This document shows positions 1,728-61,462 of a stretch of 61,462 bases of DNA, piece after piece. Position 1 is the stretch's first letter; each line of letters opens with the position of its first letter. Source of the stretch: a virus; IMG/VR virus record IMGVR_UViG_3300034168_000141, positions 1 through 61,462 of that record. One strand, given 5' to 3'. The position numbers and the translations under genes are program-made. A model generated the notes under the pieces. It did not search any database and was not told the DNA's origin. It saw only the letters and a program-made list of their open reading frames with translations.

Positions 1728-2467
1728 TTAAGACAGCTTTTGTTGTAATGCGTTTGCGTAATCCATAGCATAGGTTAAATGGGTAAATATTGTTGAAGCT
1801 CTCGTATTAGTTATAGCATCAAACTTAGTTATATCTCGCTCAGCCATCTCCTCTATCACGTGCCACCATTGGTACACACTTGCTAATGTTTCACCTCTTC
1901 TGCTAATTGACTGATCTCCCTCTTCAATGTCTCCAGCTCCTGCTCTAAATATTCGGGTGTACTGTTCACTAAATCGTTTCTGAGTGTCGAAAAAAAAAGC
2001 AGCGCAGCATTCACATTGGCTAAATTCATCTTCCTCATTTGAGGCACGTACTTCATGTGAGTAGTGCTATCATAATCCTCTATCTTGTATTGCAGATTAA
2101 TCTCAGCTGTTACCGGTCTATAGAGAATGCACATAAGCTCAGGCATCTGATGGGGGAAGTTCTTACTAAACTCAGATAGATCTAACCACTCTCCAAAGGT
2201 CATGCTCTTGAGATCAGGATGAAAGCCGAACTTAACCCCATCTATCTCTATGAACTTCTGAAATATCTTCTCGTCATTCTTTAAGCCTGCTGCATAGGTG
2301 CTTACTATCTTATCAATAGTAGGCATGTCTATCTTGCGTATATCATCTCGCTTTAATCCTGTGATGGCTGCTATCTGAGATATGCTATCTGTACCGGCAG
2401 CTATAAAATCTACATAAGTACCCAGTGTCTGATCTGAATACTTAGTGCTAATTATCTTCTCGCTCAT
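1728..2467 (-). CDS. Tail assembly chaperone, long form made by -1 frameshift (GT-like)
   Basis: If ribosomes slip back one base on the T9 run at 1990-1998, the frame stays open through the apparent gap to a TAA at 1728, giving about 246 residues. The added segment includes VYQWWHVIEEMAERDITKFD and FTHLTYAMDYANA. Phage B has the corresponding extension at the same place (GRYGWYHLFMEACGRDITKL, FTYMTYLIDY). In siphoviruses, G and GT chaperones made by frameshifting bind the tape measure during tail assembly. The assignment rests on homology between the two hidden frames, the conserved slip site and position before the tail genes. Confidence 0.82.
1883..2467 (-). CDS. Tail assembly chaperone, short form (G-like)
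   Basis: A 194-residue zero-frame product, homologous to the phage B protein at 32240-32824. Shared features are LSEFSKNFPHQMPELMCILY against a matching MVKIMGTLYRPI region, the LLFFSTL segment encoded by the T9 run, and a charged coiled-coil end. The start overlaps the small-terminase stop by ATGA, so translation is probably coupled. It is likely the predominant form, with the frameshifted long form as minor product. No enzymatic motif is visible. The role is inferred from gene position and the frameshift architecture. Confidence 0.75.
   Translation of the reverse strand: MSEKIISTKYSDQTLGTYVDFIAAGTDSISQIAAITGLKRDDIRKIDMPTIDKIVSTYAAGLKNDEKIFQKFIEIDGVKFGFHPDLKSMTFGEWLDLSEFSKNFPHQMPELMCILYRPVTAEINLQYKIEDYDSTTHMKYVPQMRKMNLANVNAALLFFSTLRNDLVNSTPEYLEQELETLKREISQLAEEVKH
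1990..1998 (-). other. Slippery site T9 in chaperone gene
   Basis: On the coding strand the zero frame reads C TTT TTT TT TCG across nine T, giving a canonical T TTT TTT heptamer. The identical T9 between GC and CGAC occurs at 32347-32355 in phage B. Beyond it both -1 frames stay open for about 85-95 codons. Confidence 0.8.
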
Positions 2468-2871
2468 ATGTTTGTACCATCAATAGTTATGTTAATGCTC
2501 TTTATCTCTGTGCTCAGCTCTTGCCTCTCTATGTAACCTCTCTGCTTACCTTGAGTCTTAAGGTAAAAGATAACAGCTGATGTGTTAGGTGCATCTTTAA
2601 TAGTTACCACATCACCATCATGGGTGAGCGCTTGGCGCTCTGCTCCCTCCATCAGCTTCTTAAGCTGCGACTCAGCAAAGTCTAAAGCTACATTCTTAAG
2701 TGAAGCTACAGCAGCGTTATACTCAGCATCATCTTTGAGCCATTCATAGTGAATAGTTCTACTGATCCCCAACTTCTCACAGGCTTCAGTTACGTTACCT
2801 AAAGAAGCAGTAAGCGCCTGAAGCATAGCATCTTTTTTCAGCGTTAACTTTTGTACAGGCTCCTCACTCAT
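2464..2871 (-). CDS. terS: Terminase small subunit
   Basis: 135 residues. It has an N-terminal HTH with the motif GNVTEACEKLGISR followed by YEWLKDDAEY, then LDFAESQLKKLM, SAVIFYLKTQGKQRGYIERQ. This is the pattern of phBC6A51-type small terminases, which recognise phage DNA and hand it to the large subunit. It lies between two late genes, with 4-base overlaps at both ends. Phage B carries an unrelated small terminase at the corresponding locus (33267-33623). The large subunit is 3 kb away on the other side of the leader RNA. Confidence 0.85.
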   Translation of the reverse strand: MSEEPVQKLTLKKDAMLQALTASLGNVTEACEKLGISRTIHYEWLKDDAEYNAAVASLKNVALDFAESQLKKLMEGAERQALTHDGDVVTIKDAPNTSAVIFYLKTQGKQRGYIERQELSTEIKSINITIDGTNI

Positions 2872-3789: not shown

Positions 3790-4120
3790 GTTACATCTAA
3801 TAGTGTAATTAGCTATAAGCTTTAGCTATTAACTCTATGCTTAGAGCTTAGATTCTGAGCTAAATGAGAGATAGAAGTATCCAAGCAAAAAGATTACTCT
3901 TTCTGTTGGGCTCTCATTTAAATGACTGTCTCTCTGCTTGTCGCTTGAGTTCTTTCGCCATTATGAGTTAGTGTCATCAGCAATGTGCACTAACATGGTA
4001 TCTATCTTTTAGAGTAATTGCCTACCCTAAGTAACCTGGAGCTTATACCTTAGCCATACTCCTGAGCTTTGTTACTATCCCGCAGTAGCTCGTTTCATTC
4101 TCTATGCTGCCGTTAATCGA
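3790..4120 (-). other. Structured gene-free stretch downstream of late leader
   Basis: Gene-free apart from micro-ORFs of 4-15 codons. It holds several inverted repeats: AGCTTAG/CTGAGCT (3845-3861, 3-base loop), TAAATGAGAG/CTCTCATTTA (3861-3870 with 3911-3920), ATTACTCT/AGAGTAAT (3893-3900 with 4011-4018, crossing the previous pair), GTTAGTG/CACTAAC (3967-3994) and GGAG/CTCC (4038-4062). This could be a structured untranslated RNA or a packaging-start region near the small terminase. Nothing decides between these. Confidence 0.45.
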
Positions 4121-4130
4121 TTCCGCACAT

Positions 4131-4175
4131 AAAAAATATAGCCCTAAGGATGCAGGGTGAGAACATCCAAAGGGC
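4131..4175 (-). terminator. Intrinsic terminator at end of late leader
   Basis: Minus-strand hairpin with two 5-bp GC-rich blocks (GCCCU/AGGGC and GGAUG/CAUCC) separated by a UU/UU internal loop, followed by UAUAUUUUUU. The same U-tract decamer follows the phage B leader hairpin. Confidence 0.8.
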
Positions 4176-4214
4176 GTATAAAACCTTAAATCAAATCTAC
4201 AGTAATACCACCCT
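4131..4214 (-). ncRNA. Late-operon leader RNA with terminator and 5'-end/loop pairing (phage A)
   Basis: Starting about 4-5 bases after a TACATTTG box, the RNA opens with CAGGGUG (4215-4209). A terminator hairpin follows: GCCCU-UU-GGAUG / CAUCC-UU-AGGGC (4175-4141), then UAUAUUUUUU. The 11-nt loop contains CACCCUG, the exact complement of the 5' element, so the 5' end can form a 7-bp pseudoknot with the terminator loop. Phage B has the same layout with different sequences (35197-35266). Proposed role: conditional terminator of the late operon or a free small RNA, by analogy with the terminated late leaders of lambdoid phages. Confidence 0.7.
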
Positions 4215-4242
4215 GTAACAAATGTATTTAATATGTGTTACA
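4214..4242. promoter_or_regulatory. Dyad over late promoter, candidate operator
   Basis: TGTAACA (4214-4220) and TGTTACA (4236-4242) form a perfect 7-base inverted repeat with a 15-base spacer that straddles the -7 box of the late promoter. This is where a repressor or activator would be expected. No matching dyad was found at the phage B late promoter. Confidence 0.45.
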
Positions 4243-4454: not shown

Positions 4455-4966
4455 ATCTTTTTTCTTTTTGCTTTACGTTTCTTTATACGTTCAGGAGTAA
4501 TCTCTACTTGCGTTAATTCAGTTAATGCAGCCTTCTGCAAATCTTCTACTAATGATCTCTCTAATCTATCTAACAGCTCATTCATGCAGGGAGTGCAAGT
4601 AGTAAAGCTCTTGTTATCTTTAATGCCAAGATACTCACGTCTGAGTTTAAACAGCTGCTGCATCTCTCCAGCTTGTACACTTCCTCTCTTTCTAATAGCT
4701 CTAATTTGCTCAAGTGTTGGCATCTGCCATTCTTTTTGGTTGAGCGTTGGCCACTTCTTAGCTGGGCAGCTCGTTACTGCATAAGACGCTAAGTGATCTA
4801 CCGGGCAGCCACAAGGTTTAAAGACTACACCATCTAATGTAGTAGGCTGCTTAAATGGATTGATAGCATTTATTGGAGGTCCGCATGTTTTGTAACGCTC
4901 GTTAAATACAGGGCATGCCTTGCAGATATTTATCCTTGCTTCATAATCTGATGTGCTAATCATCAT
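4451..4966 (-). CDS. Cys-rich putative zinc-binding protein, 171 aa
   Basis: The N-terminal half carries ICKACPVF, KTCG, KPCGCPVDHLASYAVTSCPAKKW, and a later CTPC pair. The phage B homologue at 35319-35759 keeps ICRACKFF, SCG, LCGCVMP, ASCPASKW and CPPC. The paired cysteines suggest zinc coordination. The C-terminus is very basic (RIKKRKAKRKKI), compatible with nucleic-acid binding. In both phages it follows the sigma-like gene with an overlapping start, so a regulatory partnership is plausible but unproven. Confidence 0.75.
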   Translation of the reverse strand: MMISTSDYEARINICKACPVFNERYKTCGPPINAINPFKQPTTLDGVVFKPCGCPVDHLASYAVTSCPAKKWPTLNQKEWQMPTLEQIRAIRKRGSVQAGEMQQLFKLRREYLGIKDNKSFTTCTPCMNELLDRLERSLVEDLQKAALTELTQVEITPERIKKRKAKRKKI

Positions 4967-5466
4967 ATCTGTAATGAATTTCTTAGTGTTGTTTTAGCTT
5001 TCTGAATTGTCCTATAAAGATAGGCTAAAGGTATCCCTGTTTCTTTCGCCAATGCCTGATAAGAAAAATCATCTAAGGCATAGAGAAAGAATAGCTCACG
5101 CTCAAAGTATGGCAGTCTACTGATAAAGATATCTAACTGCTCATTCTCTAATCTCATCCCTACACTCTTATTCACATCATCCATGATATCATCTTTCAGA
5201 TCATTGCGTATCTTCTCAAACTTCCTCAGCGTATAATTAAAGCTGCTGTTACTACAGCGTGCAGCAAGTCTTATGCTATTGCTTACGTAATTGTTCAGCT
5301 TACCTCTGTTATGAATATCTTGCAGCTTATCCTTATCTGATTCTAATATCTTAAGTAGCGTGTCATGTAAAAGTTCATCTGCTACATCTGCACGCACTAC
5401 ACTATGCGCCACCCTGCGCCACTCTAAATAACACTTATCGAACTCAGAGCGCCAGGTATTCATCAA
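4963..5466 (-). CDS. RNA polymerase sigma-70-like factor
   Basis: 167 residues. The C-terminal third resembles sigma region 4: FISRLPYFERELFFLYALDD, FSYQALAKETGIP, LYRTIQKAKTTLR, an HTH that would contact a -35-type element. The N-terminus (YLEWRRVAHSVV, ELLHDTLLKILE) resembles region 2. This is the size of ECF-type factors. Phage B encodes a homologue at 35737-36240. The stop and start are shared with the Cys-rich gene by a 4-base overlap and the start lies inside the end of the nuclease gene. It may direct host RNA polymerase to phage promoters. Confidence 0.75.
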   Translation of the reverse strand: MMNTWRSEFDKCYLEWRRVAHSVVRADVADELLHDTLLKILESDKDKLQDIHNRGKLNNYVSNSIRLAARCSNSSFNYTLRKFEKIRNDLKDDIMDDVNKSVGMRLENEQLDIFISRLPYFERELFFLYALDDFSYQALAKETGIPLAYLYRTIQKAKTTLRNSLQI

Positions 5467-29857: not shown

Positions 29858-32101
29858 TTATACTGTTGGAAATATAGTTACTTCTCCTGTTATATTAGTT
29901 TGCGGTGGAAACAAAGAATAAAATGTACAACTTCCTGCTGTTACGTCAACTTGTGGTAACATACCGCAGGTAGTAACCTCTGAATAACTAGCATTACCTG
30001 GAGTAAAATCTACTCGGGTATTAGTTGTTATATTAACATTTGAAAATGTATATGTATAATATCCACTTACTAAAACCCAGCTTGCAGCTGTTAGTGTCTG
30101 AGCTGTTAATTTATATATTGTACCTCCACCTCCGCCACCACCCGAATACTGCGGAATGTTTAATGTAGCACCTACCAAAGTAGCTGCGCCACTTGTTCCT
30201 GTTGTAGTTAAAGTGAGCGTGTCTTGCTTAGCGTTTAATGCTGTTTGCGTTGCAGTTGAGATAGGCTTGTTAAGATCGCTTGTGTTGTCTACATTGGCCA
30301 AACCTACTGCTGTTTTGTCTAATGTTTGAAACGTCTTATCGCCTCTGTAATAATCGCCTGTTGTTCCTGCCGTAATCGTTGGCTCTACTGCTATATTACC
30401 ACTACCCAAAAGAGTAGTGCTATTGACAGTCTTTATATTAGTATTGCTAACGAGTAGATCTTGCTTTCCATTAAACGTAGTCCAATCCGCAGAACTTAAT
30501 GCGCCTCTATTCGCTGCGCTTGCTGTTGGAAGGTTAAACGTATGCGTACTTGTCGCAGATGAGATACCGAAGTCAGTGCCACTCGTTCCAGTTGCGAAGT
30601 TCTGCACCTGTGCAGTTAAGCCATTCAATGCAGTTAAGCCTGTTGAGAAGGTAGTTATTACTTCACACAGGTGACTGTTTTCGGTGTGGAGTGTAATCGT
30701 TCTGCCCGAGTGCGTAACGTATATTCTAACCGCTAATCTATCAGTAGCCGCTAACGTAGTTTGAGGTATAGCTAACGCACTAACATAAAGGTCTATTGCC
30801 GTTCCGTTGGTGATGCCTTCGGGAGTAGCTGAATTAGACGCTATCAAAGATAAGGTTGCTCCATCCCATTTATACAATTCAATATAAAATGAAGGAGTGC
30901 CACCGCTACTTGATGCGCTGAAATATGTTTCAAAGTTCCAATTTCCTCCAGGTATCTCTAATAGATTTGGAACATTCGCATCTGTGATAAAAGATTGAAT
31001 GTAACCGTCTGCTGCTATTGTGAAATCTGTTCCTGCACCTAAGACAGGAGTTCTGTCCATTTCCTTAAATGCTACACCTCCAAATGTACCTTGCGCTACT
31101 GATCCGTTGAGGTAAAATGTTAAAGAAGAACCACCGCCTGATGAAGCAGGGAAGTTAGCCAAGCTACCATCACCTCTCACATATTGTGATACAGTACCTG
31201 CTCCTGTAACCGCTATATCTCCACTACTTGTAATGGGACTATTCGCTACACTAAATGCGGAAGGCATTGTTAAGCCCACGCTTGTAACTGTTCCAGTTGG
31301 TATTGTCGGAAGGTTGTCGAGGTCGTTATAGTTGTTGCTGAAACCAACCGCGCTGATGCTGGTGATGTCAGCCTTCAAAAGTATTTCTTCTTCGAGTGCG
31401 TCAATGGCTGCTTCAATGTCTATAATAGTTTGACAATCACCAATCGTTTCGCAGGTTAATCCACTTGCTTCAAGTAAGTACCAACCGCGCACTCCTTCCT
31501 CGTCCGTTCCGTAGTAATAGTTTGGTGCTGGTGTTGCCTCATCATTCACTAACGACACGTTGCCGTTCTCGTCGCGTGTAATTGAATCAATGAACGTTAA
31601 GATTGAACCCGTACCACCGCTTCCGCTTTCAAAAAAGTCGTTCCACTCCGCAGGAATTGAACACGCGTCCCAATAATAAGGAACAAGCAATTCAAGACTA
31701 ATCGTCCAACCTGTTAACGTGTTGTGAAATTCTTCAAGGAAGGGTTCTAACGTGACATTTTGCACCGTGATTAAGTCGCCAAACAAAACGCGGTGGTTTG
31801 TTATCTCGGCAACTAAATCTTCAGCTATGCGTTGAAGGTCAGAAAGAACCTCACGTTGAAACTCAACCTTGTCGTCTTTATCTCTAGGAAGATCCGCAAG
31901 GACAATCTGAAAAGAGAATGTCTTAGTACCTTTTGCGTAAGTAACGTTCGAAGGTACAACGTGCATAAATGGATATTCGGTAAACTTTTCAAGGTCTGCC
32001 GTGTCAATCTGACCATGTGAAAAGGTCTTAAGAATAAAGTGTCCAGAGGCAAATGCCTTGAATCTATCTATAAGTGCGTTGTAGCTTTGTACGTTCGACA
32101 T
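29858..32101 (-). CDS. Tail fibre as assembled (phage B N-terminus on phage A C-terminus), 747 aa
   Basis: ATG at 32101; the first ~260 residues (to about 31300) have phage B codon style and pair with the B chaperone gene upstream. The middle (about 31234-30440) is nearly identical to 60680-61356 and 1-180. The end (TIYKLTAQTLTAASWVLVSG, GNASYSEVTTCGMLPQVDV) leads into phage A genes. The hybrid is probably an assembly product: B proper would join 32101-31116 to 61356-60141 (733 residues), A proper 1712-1 to 31115-29858 (989 residues). All combinations are in frame. Confidence 0.8.
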   Translation of the reverse strand: MSNVQSYNALIDRFKAFASGHFILKTFSHGQIDTADLEKFTEYPFMHVVPSNVTYAKGTKTFSFQIVLADLPRDKDDKVEFQREVLSDLQRIAEDLVAEITNHRVLFGDLITVQNVTLEPFLEEFHNTLTGWTISLELLVPYYWDACSIPAEWNDFFESGSGGTGSILTFIDSITRDENGNVSLVNDEATPAPNYYYGTDEEGVRGWYLLEASGLTCETIGDCQTIIDIEAAIDALEEEILLKADITSISAVGFSNNYNDLDNLPTIPTGTVTSVGLTMPSAFSVANSPITSSGDIAVTGAGTVSQYVRGDGSLANFPASSGGGSSLTFYLNGSVAQGTFGGVAFKEMDRTPVLGAGTDFTIAADGYIQSFITDANVPNLLEIPGGNWNFETYFSASSSGGTPSFYIELYKWDGATLSLIASNSATPEGITNGTAIDLYVSALAIPQTTLAATDRLAVRIYVTHSGRTITLHTENSHLCEVITTFSTGLTALNGLTAQVQNFATGTSGTDFGISSATSTHTFNLPTASAANRGALSSADWTTFNGKQDLLVSNTNIKTVNSTTLLGSGNIAVEPTITAGTTGDYYRGDKTFQTLDKTAVGLANVDNTSDLNKPISTATQTALNAKQDTLTLTTTGTSGAATLVGATLNIPQYSGGGGGGGTIYKLTAQTLTAASWVLVSGYYTYTFSNVNITTNTRVDFTPGNASYSEVTTCGMLPQVDVTAGSCTFYSLFPPQTNITGEVTIFPTV
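30440..31234. repeat. Fibre-tip segment shared between phages A and B
   Basis: Nearly identical by eye to 60680-61462 plus 1-119, with scattered single-base changes, whereas the flanking fibre regions and other genes are far more divergent. It encodes LTFYLNGSVAQGTFGG through HSGRTITLHTENSHLC. This is either recent exchange of a fibre domain or a strongly selected receptor-contact domain, and it is the probable assembly crossover. Confidence 0.85.
31116..31234. repeat. Internal copy of the contig-end repeat
   Basis: Identical to bases 1-119 and, over 106 bases, to 61357-61462. It marks the point where the two phage maps can be separated: 1-31115 and 31116-61356. Confidence 0.9.
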
Positions 32102-33270: not shown

Positions 33271-33623
33271 AACTTGTCGTTTATGATTATTTGTATCGGT
33301 TCGCTGTTGGCTCCTGTTAACTCTGTCATTTGTTTTGGGTTACCAAACGCACGGCTTAACAATGTTTCCAACGAATACAACGAACCCTTCTTTAACGAAG
33401 TCATCATTGCGTTGGCTATTGTCTTTTCAAGTATCGTTGCGCGTGGGTTATCCCAAACGCTTTTCAGTTCGTCCATATCCATAGCCATCATAGCTTGTAT
33501 GGTGTCGTTTATTTCGCTCAACTTGTAACCGCTTTCCTTCAACAACGAAACGTATTTCTTCGGTCGTCCGTTGGGGTTGCCGCTTTCTCCTTTCTTGTAT
33601 GGTATTAAATGTTCTTTGCTCAT
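33267..33623 (-). CDS. terS: Putative terminase small subunit (DUF5681-like)
   Basis: 118 residues from ATG at 33623, after the methyltransferase stop. The N-terminus YKKGESGNPNGRPKKYVSLL is the KGxSGNPNGRPKK signature of DUF5681 proteins, frequently found as small terminase-like DNA-binding proteins. The rest is helical. It occupies the locus of the unrelated small terminase of phage A. Call inferred from signature and position. Confidence 0.6.
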   Translation of the reverse strand: MSKEHLIPYKKGESGNPNGRPKKYVSLLKESGYKLSEINDTIQAMMAMDMDELKSVWDNPRATILEKTIANAMMTSLKKGSLYSLETLLSRAFGNPKQMTELTGANSEPIQIIINDKL

Positions 33624-33627
33624 TCTG

Positions 33628-34911
33628 TTATTGTTCTGTTTTAGCATACGTTTGACCGTTACGCTTTACGCTCAACGAAGGGTCTAGTTTCAACATTCTA
33701 TCTATTATCACTTGACAATACTTTGGGTCGAGTTCCATTCCATAACACTTGCGATTAAGTTGGTGCGCTGCAACCATTGTTGAACCCGAACCCAAGAAAG
33801 CATCTGCAACTATTTCATTTTCTTTTGAGCTGTTTTGAATTAATGGAGCCAATAAAAGTATTGGTTTCATTGTTGGGTGTTCTGTGCTTCTAGTTGGTTT
33901 GTCGCAATGTATTATTGTTGACTTGGTTTTATCGCTTAGCATTTCAGTAAGCATTTTTTTCATTTCGTCTTTTGTAAGTTTTTTAATATCTATCTTGTCT
34001 TCTATTACGGTTGTATGATTTCTTTCGTTTGTAAAATAATGAGCAGCTCCTTCCTTCCATCCGTATAAACAAAGTTCGTGTTTCCATTGGTAATCTTGCC
34101 TTCCCATAACCATTGAATTTTTGACCCACACAAGGTATTGTTTTAATAAAAGTCCTGAATTTCTCATAGCTGTTGAGAAGTTTGCGGTTTCTGTCGAGGC
34201 GTGCCAAACATACCAAGCACCGCCCTTTTTTGTGTAGCTTCCTAACGCTGTGTAAAAATCATATAAAAATTGGTAGAAATTGGAATCGGACATATCATCA
34301 TTTTGTATTGTTAAAGCGTCCTTTGTTTTTCCAATGTAAGCAATATTATACGGAGGATCAGTCATAACCATGTCGCAAAGTTTTTCATTCATTACTTTGT
34401 CCCAAGTGTCTACTTGTGTACTATCTCCACACAACAAACGATGTTCGCCTATCTCAAATAAATCTCCAATTACAATGTTGGTATTTATTTCATCTGGTAT
34501 TTCGTAATCATCTTCTTCAACTTCTATTTCTTCTTCAACTATTAAATCTGAAGGCAAGTCTAAACCCCACTGGTCCAATTGTTCCGCGTCCCATTCGTTT
34601 GCTAACGCATCCCAGTCCCATTCACCAAAACCAACATTGTCTTTAATAATAAAGGCGCGTTGTTGTTCTTCGTTTAATTCAGATGCTTTGATAATTGGTA
34701 TTTCTTTAAGTCCTGCTTCTTTGCACGCTTTCAATCTCATGTTACCACCAAGAACAATCATATCTTCATTTACGACTATTGGACGTAATTCCAACATTTG
34801 TGGAAGTTCTTTGATTGAAGCAACGAGTTTCTTGAATTTATCGTCCTTAATAATTCTTGGATTATTAGGATTAGATTTTACTTCGTTGATAGGGACAGTT
34901 TGTGTCTTCAT
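33628..34911 (-). CDS. ParB-domain / adenine-or-cytosine-N4 DNA methyltransferase, 427 aa
   Basis: The N-terminal ParB/sulfiredoxin-like domain (INEVKSNPNNPRIIKDDKF, IVLGGNMRLKACKEAGLKEI) is joined to a methyltransferase with motif IV DPPY (MTDPPYNIAYIGK) preceding motif I FLGSGSTMVAAHQL and ELDPKYCQVIIDR, the beta-group order. ParB-MTases in phages modify their own DNA and can block host restriction. It is the first gene of the phage B late operon, after the leader RNA. Phage A has none. Confidence 0.9.
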   Translation of the reverse strand: MKTQTVPINEVKSNPNNPRIIKDDKFKKLVASIKELPQMLELRPIVVNEDMIVLGGNMRLKACKEAGLKEIPIIKASELNEEQQRAFIIKDNVGFGEWDWDALANEWDAEQLDQWGLDLPSDLIVEEEIEVEEDDYEIPDEINTNIVIGDLFEIGEHRLLCGDSTQVDTWDKVMNEKLCDMVMTDPPYNIAYIGKTKDALTIQNDDMSDSNFYQFLYDFYTALGSYTKKGGAWYVWHASTETANFSTAMRNSGLLLKQYLVWVKNSMVMGRQDYQWKHELCLYGWKEGAAHYFTNERNHTTVIEDKIDIKKLTKDEMKKMLTEMLSDKTKSTIIHCDKPTRSTEHPTMKPILLLAPLIQNSSKENEIVADAFLGSGSTMVAAHQLNRKCYGMELDPKYCQVIIDRMLKLDPSLSVKRNGQTYAKTEQ

Positions 34912-35196
34912 ATAAGTTAAATATATTATTGTGCTAATTTACTTCAGTTGTTCCTTTTGTGTCACTAAACTTATTGACTGTCTTAAATGTGCAAAGAAAA
35001 CAAAACAAACAAAAACAAAAAGGTAAAACAAAAAGAAAGAAAAGAAAAAGTCTCCCCAAGAAAAACAAACTGTCTTTGCTCTTAAAAGAGCAGTTGCGCG
35101 ATCCAAGCATTGATGTATTGCAAGTGTAGTCATTGGTTACTTCGCTGTGACTTACGAAGGAGGTTGTTGTTCTTATCCAGTTTGTTTCATTTACTT
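34912..35196 (-). other. Gene-poor stretch between late leader and methyltransferase
   Basis: The minus strand holds a hairpin (AACTG...CAGTT with inner GCTCTT/AAGAGC, 35070-35098) followed by TTTGTTTTTCTT, which could be a second terminator, and a ~70-base almost pure pyrimidine tract (34990-35060). A 64-codon frame (34939-35133) runs through this tract but its second half is low-complexity Phe/Leu/Val, so it is not accepted as a gene. The position matches the structured gap of phage A. Confidence 0.5.
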
Positions 35197-35249
35197 AAAA
35201 AATATACCCCCAATTGTTTCTAGCCGCCAAGCAAAAACAAAAGGGGGTA
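35197..35249 (-). terminator. Intrinsic terminator at end of late leader (phage B)
   Basis: Stem UACCCCC/GGGGGUA with a long 31-nt loop and the U tract (UAUAUUUUUU in total, sharing UA with the stem). The same decamer follows the phage A leader hairpin. Confidence 0.7.
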
Positions 35250-35266
35250 ATAAGTTATTACTTGGC
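35197..35266 (-). ncRNA. Late-operon leader RNA with terminator and 5'-end/loop pairing (phage B)
   Basis: Four bases after TATATTTG the RNA would start GCCAAG (35266-35261). A terminator stem UACCCCC/GGGGGUA (35249-35243 with 35211-35205) closes a 31-nt loop holding CUUGGC (35231-35226), complementary to the 5' end, and is followed by UAUUUUUU. The 15-base palindrome GTAATAAGTTATTAC (35247-35261) can form a competing hairpin. Same order of elements as phage A 4131-4214, with different paired sequences. Confidence 0.7.
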
Positions 35267-35270
35267 TATA

Positions 35271-35278
35271 CAAATATA
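35271..35278 (-). promoter_or_regulatory. Late promoter -7 box (phage B)
   Basis: Minus-strand TATATTTG, a perfect TAnnTTTG match. No clean TTTG is seen 19-21 bases upstream (TTTTAG lies near), so the -33 box may be degenerate or the promoter may need an activator or a phage sigma factor. Confidence 0.6.
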
Positions 35279-35318: not shown

Positions 35319-35759
35319 TTAATTGTTCAAATCAACATCGACATCTTTCATTGATTCAAGAAACGTATTGATGTCTTTCTTAACGCAAGGCGGACACGTT
35401 GAACGCTCGTTGAACGCTCCTGTGGCTTTATCCTTAAAATAATAAAACTTTAACATATCTTTCTGCTCTAAACGTCCCTGAGCCTTCATATCGAGCAAGA
35501 ATCGTTTGAACTCTATTTGTTCGTCCATTGAAAGAACACCGTTCCATTTAGACGCTGGACAAGATGCGAAGGCGAGTTTTGCTTTGACTGGCATGACACA
35601 ACCACATAACTTAATTGACTTCTTGCGGAATAGAACTTCAGTTTCTACTTCGTCGCCTAAAATTAAAGTACCGCACGACTGCGTTGAAGGTTCGAAGAAT
35701 TTGCAAGCACGACAAATGTCTAACCTGCGTTTGTACTCATTGTGTTTTGCGAATAACAT
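35319..35759 (-). CDS. Cys-rich putative zinc-binding protein (phage B), 146 aa
   Basis: Homologue of phage A 4451-4966. Conserved cysteines in LDICRACKFFEPSTQSCG, KLCGCVMPVKAKLAFASCPA with the following KW, and STCPPCVK. Its start overlaps the end of the sigma-like gene by 23 bases. It lacks the very basic C-terminal tail of the phage A protein. The gene ends about 40 bases before the late promoter of phage B. Confidence 0.75.
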   Translation of the reverse strand: MLFAKHNEYKRRLDICRACKFFEPSTQSCGTLILGDEVETEVLFRKKSIKLCGCVMPVKAKLAFASCPASKWNGVLSMDEQIEFKRFLLDMKAQGRLEQKDMLKFYYFKDKATGAFNERSTCPPCVKKDINTFLESMKDVDVDLNN

Positions 35760-36240
35760 TTGCTCTTATTTTTTGTTTGATATTATCAATGGTTCGGTAA
35801 AGGAATGGAGTAGGTATTCCCGTCTGTTTGGATAGTTCACGATAGGTAAAATCTTCAAGTATGTATTCCTGAAAGATAAGACGCTCAAACTCGCTCAACC
35901 TACTTATAAGAATATCCAGTTGCTCGTTGGTCATTCGTGCGCCGAGCCAAGTCTTGTCCACTTCGTGCGCATAGTCTTTGAAGTCGCGGCGGTTTCTATT
36001 CCAGGCTATTGTTTGTTTATAGAAAGGCGACGTTGGACTGTTGACCGACAAATACATAACGCGAATAAGATAAAACTCAAAGTCGCCTGTGTCAATTAGG
36101 TTTTCAATGTGTTTACTACCAAACATAGAAAGCAAAGAGTCGTGCAAAAGATCCTCGTAGTAATCTTCGCCTCGCGAAATGTTCTTCGCAAGTTCTTTGA
36201 ACTTTTTATAGTTACCTTCTATGTAGTGGTCAAGTGTCAC
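35737..36240 (-). CDS. RNA polymerase sigma-70-like factor (phage B), 167 aa
   Basis: Same length as the phage A homologue. Region 4-like C-terminus: LISRLSEFERLIFQEYILED, FTYRELSKQTGIPTPFLYRT, then IDNIKQKIR. The N-terminal part has YYEDLLHDSLLSMF. Overlaps VRR-NUC and Cys-rich genes. Likely controls phage transcription together with the host polymerase. Target promoters are unknown. Confidence 0.75.
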   Translation of the reverse strand: MTLDHYIEGNYKKFKELAKNISRGEDYYEDLLHDSLLSMFGSKHIENLIDTGDFEFYLIRVMYLSVNSPTSPFYKQTIAWNRNRRDFKDYAHEVDKTWLGARMTNEQLDILISRLSEFERLIFQEYILEDFTYRELSKQTGIPTPFLYRTIDNIKQKIRANVIRKTQ

Positions 36241-60140: not shown

Positions 60141-61462
60141 TTAAAAGTATTTTGTTAATAAAGCTGCTTCAGTTCTTGCGGTATCACCTCCACCCACTGT
60201 TCTTATACAAAACAACAAATAATTATCAACAGTTGTATTGAATGGTGTTGTCATCATTTGATCTGCAACGAAATCTGTAAGTTGAGCTCCAGTAGTCCCA
60301 AAGTAACATAAATTACCAGCTGTTAAATGAAAATTTCGTGTAAGAGTTGCATAAGTTTGAGTCGTGCCTATTGTCGGACAAGCTGCTACTATAATTGCTC
60401 CTGATAAACTATTTGATGTGTTTAGAAAAGCAGAACCAGTAATACCACTTGCAGCACCTGTAATTCTTTTTACTTTGTAAATAACTTCTAACATAGAATT
60501 ACTTGTTAATGTGTTTGCAGGTATTAAAACTGACAAACTAATTATTTGAGTAAATGGAGTACCAACAGTTGCACCACCTGTTGTATTTATATAAACTGTT
60601 GAGGGATTACTGCTTCCACCTCCTCCTACTACTAAATCCCCACTACCAAGCAACGAGTTGCCGTTAATAGTCTTGATGTTAGTACCGCTAACGAGTAGAT
60701 CTTGCTTGCCATTAAACGTTGTCCAATCCGCAGAACTTAATGCGCCTCTATTGGCTGCGCTTGCTGTTGGAAGGTTAAACGTATGCGTACTTGTCGCTGA
60801 TGAGATACCGAAGTCAGTGCCACTCGTTCCAGTTGCGAAGTTCTGCACCTGTGCCGTTAAGCCATTCAATGCAGTAACACCTGTTGAGAAGGTAGTAATG
60901 ACTTGACAAAGATGACTATTTTCAGTATGAAGTGTAATCGTTCTGCCTGAGTGCGTAACGTAGATTCTTATTGCTAACCTATCCGTTACCGTTAACACTG
61001 TTTGCGGTACTGCTAATGCACTAACGTAAAGGTGTATTGCCGTTCCGTTGGTGATGCCTTCGGGAGTAGCCGAGTTAGACGCTATCAAAGACAATGTTGC
61101 TCCATCCCATTTGTATAACTCAATATAAAATGAAGGAGTGCCACCGCTACTTGATGCGCTGAAATATGTTTCAAAGTTCCAATTTCCTCCAGGTATCTCT
61201 AATAGATTTGGAACATTCGCATCTGTAATAAAAGACTGAATGTAACCATCTGCTGCTATTGTGAAATCTGTTCCTGCACCTAAGATAGGCACTCTGTCCA
61301 TTTCCTTAAACGCTACACCGCCAAATGTTCCTTGTGCTACTGATCCGTTGAGGTAAAATGTTAAAGAAGAACCACCGCCTGATGAAGCAGGGAAGTTAGC
61401 CAAGCTACCATCACCTCTCACATATTGTGATACAGTACCTGCTCCTGTAACCGCTATATCTC
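60141..61462 (-). CDS. Tail fibre, C-terminal part (phage B), open at window edge
   Basis: The frame is open from the window end to TAA at 60141. The first part (to ~60680) is nearly identical to the phage A fibre segment at 30440-31234. The last ~140 residues (PSTVYINTTGGATVGTPFTQ, NTLTSNSMLEVIYKVKRITG) are specific to B and duplicated at 59122-59847. In phage B the natural N-terminus is probably 32101-31116. In the circular contig it continues from base 1 instead. Confidence 0.85.
   Translation of the reverse strand, partial: DIAVTGAGTVSQYVRGDGSLANFPASSGGGSSLTFYLNGSVAQGTFGGVAFKEMDRVPILGAGTDFTIAADGYIQSFITDANVPNLLEIPGGNWNFETYFSASSSGGTPSFYIELYKWDGATLSLIASNSATPEGITNGTAIHLYVSALAVPQTVLTVTDRLAIRIYVTHSGRTITLHTENSHLCQVITTFSTGVTALNGLTAQVQNFATGTSGTDFGISSATSTHTFNLPTASAANRGALSSADWTTFNGKQDLLVSGTNIKTINGNSLLGSGDLVVGGGGSSNPSTVYINTTGGATVGTPFTQIISLSVLIPANTLTSNSMLEVIYKVKRITGAASGITGSAFLNTSNSLSGAIIVAACPTIGTTQTYATLTRNFHLTAGNLCYFGTTGAQLTDFVADQMMTTPFNTTVDNYLLFCIRTVGGGDTARTEAALLTKYF

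Follow-up and report, generated by a model that had tools for sequence, protein, structure and literature searches.

Judged from sequence, the self-clasping leader described here, in which the first bases of a transcript are complementary to the loop of its own terminator, is probably a real and hitherto undescribed on/off element for genes of Bacteroidota viruses. The explanation that we consider best, and to which we give somewhat more credence than doubt, is a cis-acting conditional intrinsic terminator with a sealed 5' end. Two such leaders, A and B, lie in the window, by which we mean the whole 61,462-nucleotide stretch of viral DNA that was analyzed. In the window, the genomes of two phages that occur together seem to meet at a shared repeat, probably through chimeric assembly: loci from the contigs 3300034068_000202 (31242 bp) and 3300034068_000203 (30355 bp) agree with one half each at 100%, and there is a 106-bp terminal repeat, the positions concerned being 1-106, 31108-31294 and 61357-61462.

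Leader A was identified by direct reading of the sequence. Its elements and the two genes that frame it are as follows; the clasp is the pairing between RNA start and terminator loop.

4131-4226, minus strand: leader A, from the TAnnTTTG promoter box to the terminator U-tract.
4219-4226, minus strand: TACATTTG, the Bacteroidota sigma-A -7 box of leader A, recognized from its sequence and placed at -12 to -5 according to PMC9723704.
4209-4214, minus strand: AGGGUG, the 5' strand of clasp A, from the predicted +1.
4181-4208, minus strand: linker between the clasp strand and the terminator (AUUACUG...GAUUUAAGG).
4141-4175, minus strand: terminator-like hairpin A, with outer stem GCCCU/AGGGC, a UU/UU internal loop and inner stem GGAUGU/GCAUCC.
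4154-4159, minus strand: CACCCU, the 3' strand of clasp A, within the hairpin loop.
4131-4136, minus strand: U6 tract of terminator A.
2464-2871, minus strand: terminase small subunit, in the operon behind leader A.
4963-5466, minus strand: phage sigma-factor-like protein, upstream of leader A.

For Flavobacterium psychrophilum, the TAnnTTTG -7 box has been placed at -12 to -5 (PMC9723704). Four nucleotides, TTAC, separate the TACATTTG box from AGGGUG, and from the published box position we infer that transcription starts at A4214, where clasp A begins. The loop CACCCU (4159-4154) is complementary to this RNA start (4214-4209). The first-pass annotation had proposed a seven-base match between the 5' end and the terminator loop, at the head of the late operon. 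The complementarity was confirmed and is more general than had been claimed, and the operon indeed leads to the terminase small subunit and tail genes. However, the seven bases had included C4215/G4153; since C4215 is -1 by the Flavobacterium box position, the RNA itself has six Watson-Crick pairs plus one G-U. The hairpin reads GCCCU-UU-GGAUGU-UCUCACCCU-GCAUCC-UU-AGGGC (4175-4141), followed by U6, and by itself is worth about -19 to -20 kcal/mol. The minimum-energy fold of leader A lacks the pseudoknot because the folding program cannot include one. Among 13 pairs of a TAnnTTTG box and a terminator in the window, the two leaders scored -13.8 and -13.2 kcal/mol, against -5.6 kcal/mol for the next. 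In its sequence, leader A has the layout of a lambda-type late leader, with a promoter and a terminator heading a late operon.

A second leader named in the same annotation also proved to be real, with its box at 35278-35271, a GCCAAGUAA start, the loop UUGCUUGGC and U6 at 35202-35197.

35271-35278, minus strand: TATATTTG box of leader B.
35258-35266, minus strand: GCCAAGUAA, the 5' strand of clasp B, starting at the predicted +1.
35207-35247, minus strand: terminator-like hairpin B, with CCCCC/GGGGG, a UU/UU internal loop and UUGUUU/AAACAA.
35226-35234, minus strand: UUGCUUGGC, the 3' strand of clasp B, within the loop.
35197-35202, minus strand: U6 tract of terminator B.
35737-36240, minus strand: sigma-factor-like protein upstream of leader B, homologous to that of leader A.

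Leader B follows the plan of leader A with unrelated pairing letters (GCCAAGUAA/UUGCUUGGC), and the linker AUUACUG...GAUUUAAGG, conserved in family A, is absent from B. The two phages are distant, their sigma-like proteins being 37% and their large terminases 60% identical.

We collected relatives of both phages from IMG/VR, using two neighbouring DUF6171-like genes and a sigma-like protein alignment as queries (24, 80 and 80 loci), and read 77 distinct leaders among them. The pairing was maintained through many two-sided changes across these 77 relatives. Family A clasps include AGGGUG/CACCCU, AUGUGUGA/UCACACAU, AUGCGUGA/UCACGCAU, AUGCGC/GCGCAU and AUGCGAC/GUCGCAU; family B clasps include GCCAAGCA/UGCUUGGC, GUCAAACCU/AGGUUUGAC, GUCAAACGU/ACGUUUGAC, GUCAAGCGU/ACGCUUGAC, GUCAAGUGU/GCACUUGAC and GCCAAAUGAA/UUCGUUUGGC. 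The -7 box was invariant across 26 aligned A-type leaders, and in 72 of the 77 leaders the clasp helix started 3, 4 or 5 nt past the box, that is, at +1 plus or minus 1. In family B, 99.5% of the cells of the clasp helix were paired, with two-sided changes at four of its eight pairs; none of 500 shuffles reached the covariation score, and slid controls gave at most one two-sided pair each. In alignment A2 the row of window leader B begins at +1, which leaves the clasp unaffected. The clasp columns of family A were misaligned by MAFFT, and this family was therefore tested by permutation instead. Its leaders paired with their own loops at a mean of -12.2 kcal/mol, a value as low as which was found in none of 5,000 permutations of loops among leaders. 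The 6-nt loop cut used in the permutation was too short for B, so support for B comes from the covariation with shuffle and slid controls and from the clasp pairs.

Relatives that keep the promoter without the pairing had been named in the first-pass annotation as an outcome that would count against the element. This check did not refute it: in nearly all relatives the pairing was kept and compensated, and weakened clasps were confined, in the leaders that we tabulated, to L100 (a recombinant leader, with five to six weak pairs) and L004, L165 and L166 (shorter or bulged). Separately, in the B-type loci L101, L108, L110, L111, L115, L117-L119, L129, L131, L137 and L140 the place of the expected leader is taken by different sequence that seems to be coding on the other strand. 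In bacterial genomes we found no relative of the sigma-like protein except a weak one in Sphingomicrobium.

In both families the terminator is followed by 150 to 400 nt of structured RNA, and no long gene starts there.

4034-4137, minus strand: class I structured RNA, directly behind terminator A, with a sub-threshold resemblance to Rfam RF02932 (Betaproteobacteria-1).
35050-35196 (extent approximate), minus strand: class II structured RNA behind terminator B (CUUCG UAAGUCACAG CGAAG ... UGACU).

The class I RNA matched RF02932 at 28.6 bits (E 0.0011; threshold 49.4), and conservation among window relatives covers a stretch of about 300 nt. The class II hairpin stem covaries (CUUCG/CGAAG, CUGAG/CUCAG), and its loop AAGUCA could pair with the downstream UGACU. 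Class I stood behind 83 and class II behind 62 of 147 leaders of A and B relatives, the two being exchangeable. A search for TAnnTTTG-type promoters revealed no box recurring at a fixed place between the A/B terminators and the first gene, so the simplest view is that the structured RNAs and the late genes are served by read-through, although promoters of another type may also lie there. Polymerases reading through in the window would reach first the conserved structured RNA and afterwards the late operon. We also considered class I as an element linked to the small terminase gene and rejected this: class I RNA occurs without the leader in many unrelated phages (L003, L007, L017, L025, L031, L045, L049, L052), where it adjoins primase/helicase, terminase or other, unrelated genes.

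A wider scan of large-terminase relatives of Flavobacterium phage 11b turned up unrelated leaders of the same plan. In L256 and in one of the three leaders of L249, the RNA start pairs directly with the terminator loop; in most others, a 5' hairpin beginning at the predicted +1 or +2 carries a loop complementary to the terminator loop, an arrangement of kissing loops. The leader of phage 11b itself (33621-33725 of AJ842011) has the kissing loops CGGGCAGG/CCUGCCCG. Our first scan did not separate real boxes from permuted decoys (-9.5 kcal/mol or lower in 14 of 129 real versus 38 of 601 decoy pairs), and we therefore relied on a scan free of the T-tract condition, a pattern test, covariation of the kissing helix and the distance between box and RNA start. 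The T-free scan gave 12 leader matches versus 2 in the upstream control; about 10 of the 12 were non-coding and had a U-rich tract at their end. Because the earlier scans had required a T-tract, only the T-free scan and the pattern search inform on the U-tract without bias.

The predictive pattern specified TTTG and a GUAG...CUAC hairpin only, and left the loop positions open. It found 113 stretches, of which 80 were retrieved, 62 of them distinct and with enough sequence. The predicted complement (exact, at least seven of eight loop bases) lay 34-40 nt downstream in 56 of the 62 distinct sites, compared with 1.4% of cases when loops were swapped. The six sites without it look unrelated, two lying in long frames and two sharing another repeated sequence. 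The search had specified only TTTG, yet all 57 true leaders (under slightly different deduplication) had TA in the box, and in all 57 kissing leaders the 5' hairpin started 4-5 nt past it. In 24 aligned leaders the loop-loop helix was 100% paired, with two-sided changes at four of seven pairs; the terminator stems covaried too, and none of 500 shuffles reached the score of the whole structure.

This covariation bears on a reading at the DNA level, namely that the complementary sequences at +1 and downstream are operator half-sites, forming an inverted repeat to which a phage regulator binds at the promoter. The positions of the two sequences could suit such sites, but the one downstream sits within the loop of a hairpin, the one upstream has its first base where the RNA is predicted to start, and the hairpin stems covary as well; we regard this reading as very improbable.

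A covariance model of the kissing-loop family defined here (R1, the 5' GUAG hairpin plus terminator) detected the 11b leader (E 0.0012) and the hemulen6-1 leaders, and found neither window leader. The window leaders have no conserved 5' hairpin, and our claim is therefore limited to a similar mode of action and does not extend to homology. What they share with the kissing family is the TAnnTTTG box with a 5' end predicted to be sealed at +1 or +2, together with compensated pairing between a 5' element and the terminator loop. Scans of Nonlabens phage P12024S and Cellulophaga phage phi10:1 gave no convincing leader.

Downstream of the kissing stem, U occupies 91-98% of positions +1 to +5, and in 48 of 53 leaders a U5 run begins 0 nt from the stem base. 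The leaders of 11b relatives mostly lie 7-29 nt ahead of an ATG (one at 49 nt, and one tandem copy at 133 nt), and in the kissing family the stem base precedes the ATG by a nearly constant 9-13 nt, with an ATG at 9-19 nt past the stem in the aligned set. This spacing would be needless for a pure terminator and hints at a role in translation. Its tightness makes a 5' UTR module for stability and translation the main rival: the clasp would block 5'-end-dependent decay and the U-rich stretch would be a ribosome standby site. Such a module would account for the sealing at +1 or +2, for the constant distance from hairpin base to ATG and for the many unrelated genes that the leader precedes. On the other hand, the window families have structured RNA in place of a long gene, and the U5 run directly adjoins the base of the stem as in terminators; on balance we consider this rival unlikely, and favor the conditional terminator.

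Genes behind kissing leaders encode NUMOD4/HNH and GIY-YIG endonucleases, primase, methylases, helicase, DUF6291 and ParB proteins. In Bacteroidota phages, homing endonuclease genes of the HNH and GIY-YIG types that stand alone (L317-L396) often have the same kind of promoter and kissing leader, as if the endonuclease cassette travelled with them. Two cultured groups carry the leader, namely 34 Flavobacterium phage records of the hemulen/mumin group and phage 11b, and it is therefore directly testable. The two leaders of phage hemulen6-1 (13726-13822 and 14761-14871 of MN812208.1) differ in their pairing letters, and the second precedes the genes that lead to primase. Since the same architecture precedes replication genes, methylases, helicase and homing endonucleases in other phages, late operons are not its only setting, and it is improbable that the element is nothing more than a lone small RNA. 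A stable small RNA with its target elsewhere, the late operon being merely a neighbour, would need just such a sealed 5' end and 3' terminator, and lambda pR' makes a short RNA of this kind. Nevertheless, the hairpin in the distant phages mostly lies within 7-29 nt of the next start codon, and pairing letters differ even between copies within one genome, so that we hold this explanation to be decidedly improbable.

We propose that the conditional terminator works as follows. A host-type TAnnTTTG promoter would start the RNA, whose first bases would be sealed from +1 or +2, in the window phages by direct pairing of the RNA start with the terminator hairpin loop and in phage 11b and its relatives by a 5' hairpin loop that kisses the terminator loop. 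Most transcripts would stop at the U-tract, giving an RNA of roughly 70-95 nt with both ends protected, and expression of the downstream genes would come from the transcripts that continue past it, a share that a phage or host factor may increase when the time is right. Termination, the tuning of stopping or stability by the clasp, and regulated read-through are all inferred. More tentatively, and with rather less confidence than in the terminator itself, we suggest that these leaders may represent a kind of RNA switch that is widespread among Bacteroidota phages and so far undescribed, in which the sealed 5' end clasps the apical loop as a protein-free or phage-factor-dependent gate, with letters specific to each operon of a phage that would avoid cross-talk. 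A leader terminator locked in this way would bear on gene control in Bacteroidota phages, which are abundant in the gut and in water and whose gene control is a largely open subject.

No leader matched an Rfam 15 family above the gathering threshold where scanned. An above-threshold DUF805b cis-regulatory RNA occurs in an 11b-related contig (L262:5251-5286), away from the leader. The literature searches that were possible for kissing or pseudoknot terminator leaders gave nothing nearer than antisense attenuators, and we know of no leader terminator in which the RNA locks the loop with its own first bases. The leaders lack the conserved ligand-binding core of a pseudoknot riboswitch: there is free variation in the pairing letters, and in B the linker is short and not conserved. 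RF02932 is resembled, below threshold, by the class I RNA, an element separate from the leader. Lambda pR', which yields a short terminated RNA, shares with the window leaders a promoter and a terminator (tR') heading the late genes and a regulatory gene just upstream; whereas lambda has Q, we identified no Q-like gene here, only the sigma-like gene upstream. To our knowledge, a clasp between 5' end and terminator loop is not part of lambda tR'.

The put RNA of phage HK022, of about 70 nt with two stem-loops, lies upstream of the terminators that it suppresses (PMC9378689). Like put, the leaders are short structured phage RNAs with stem-loops near the promoter that could act on RNA polymerase (PMC9378689). 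A self-acting antiterminator of this type, in which the clasped RNA would bind RNA polymerase and pass this and later terminators, is suggested by the contact between two neighbouring hairpins directly at the promoter, by the many copies at operon heads and by conserved internal loops in the terminator stem, many of which are UGAU/UGAU-like and compatible with tandem sheared G-A pairs. However, put has no terminator or U-tract of its own and acts on later terminators, whereas the window and 11b elements are a hairpin plus U-tract, and no sequence relation to put was detectable; we think this explanation quite unlikely. The conditional terminator finds a further likeness in pT181-type attenuators, in which loop-loop RNA contacts decide whether a terminator forms; there the partner is an antisense RNA acting in trans, whereas here both partners lie in one leader. 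Leader terminators are already known as a kind, and what appears to be new is the locking of the loop by the RNA's own first bases, compensated in several unrelated-looking families.
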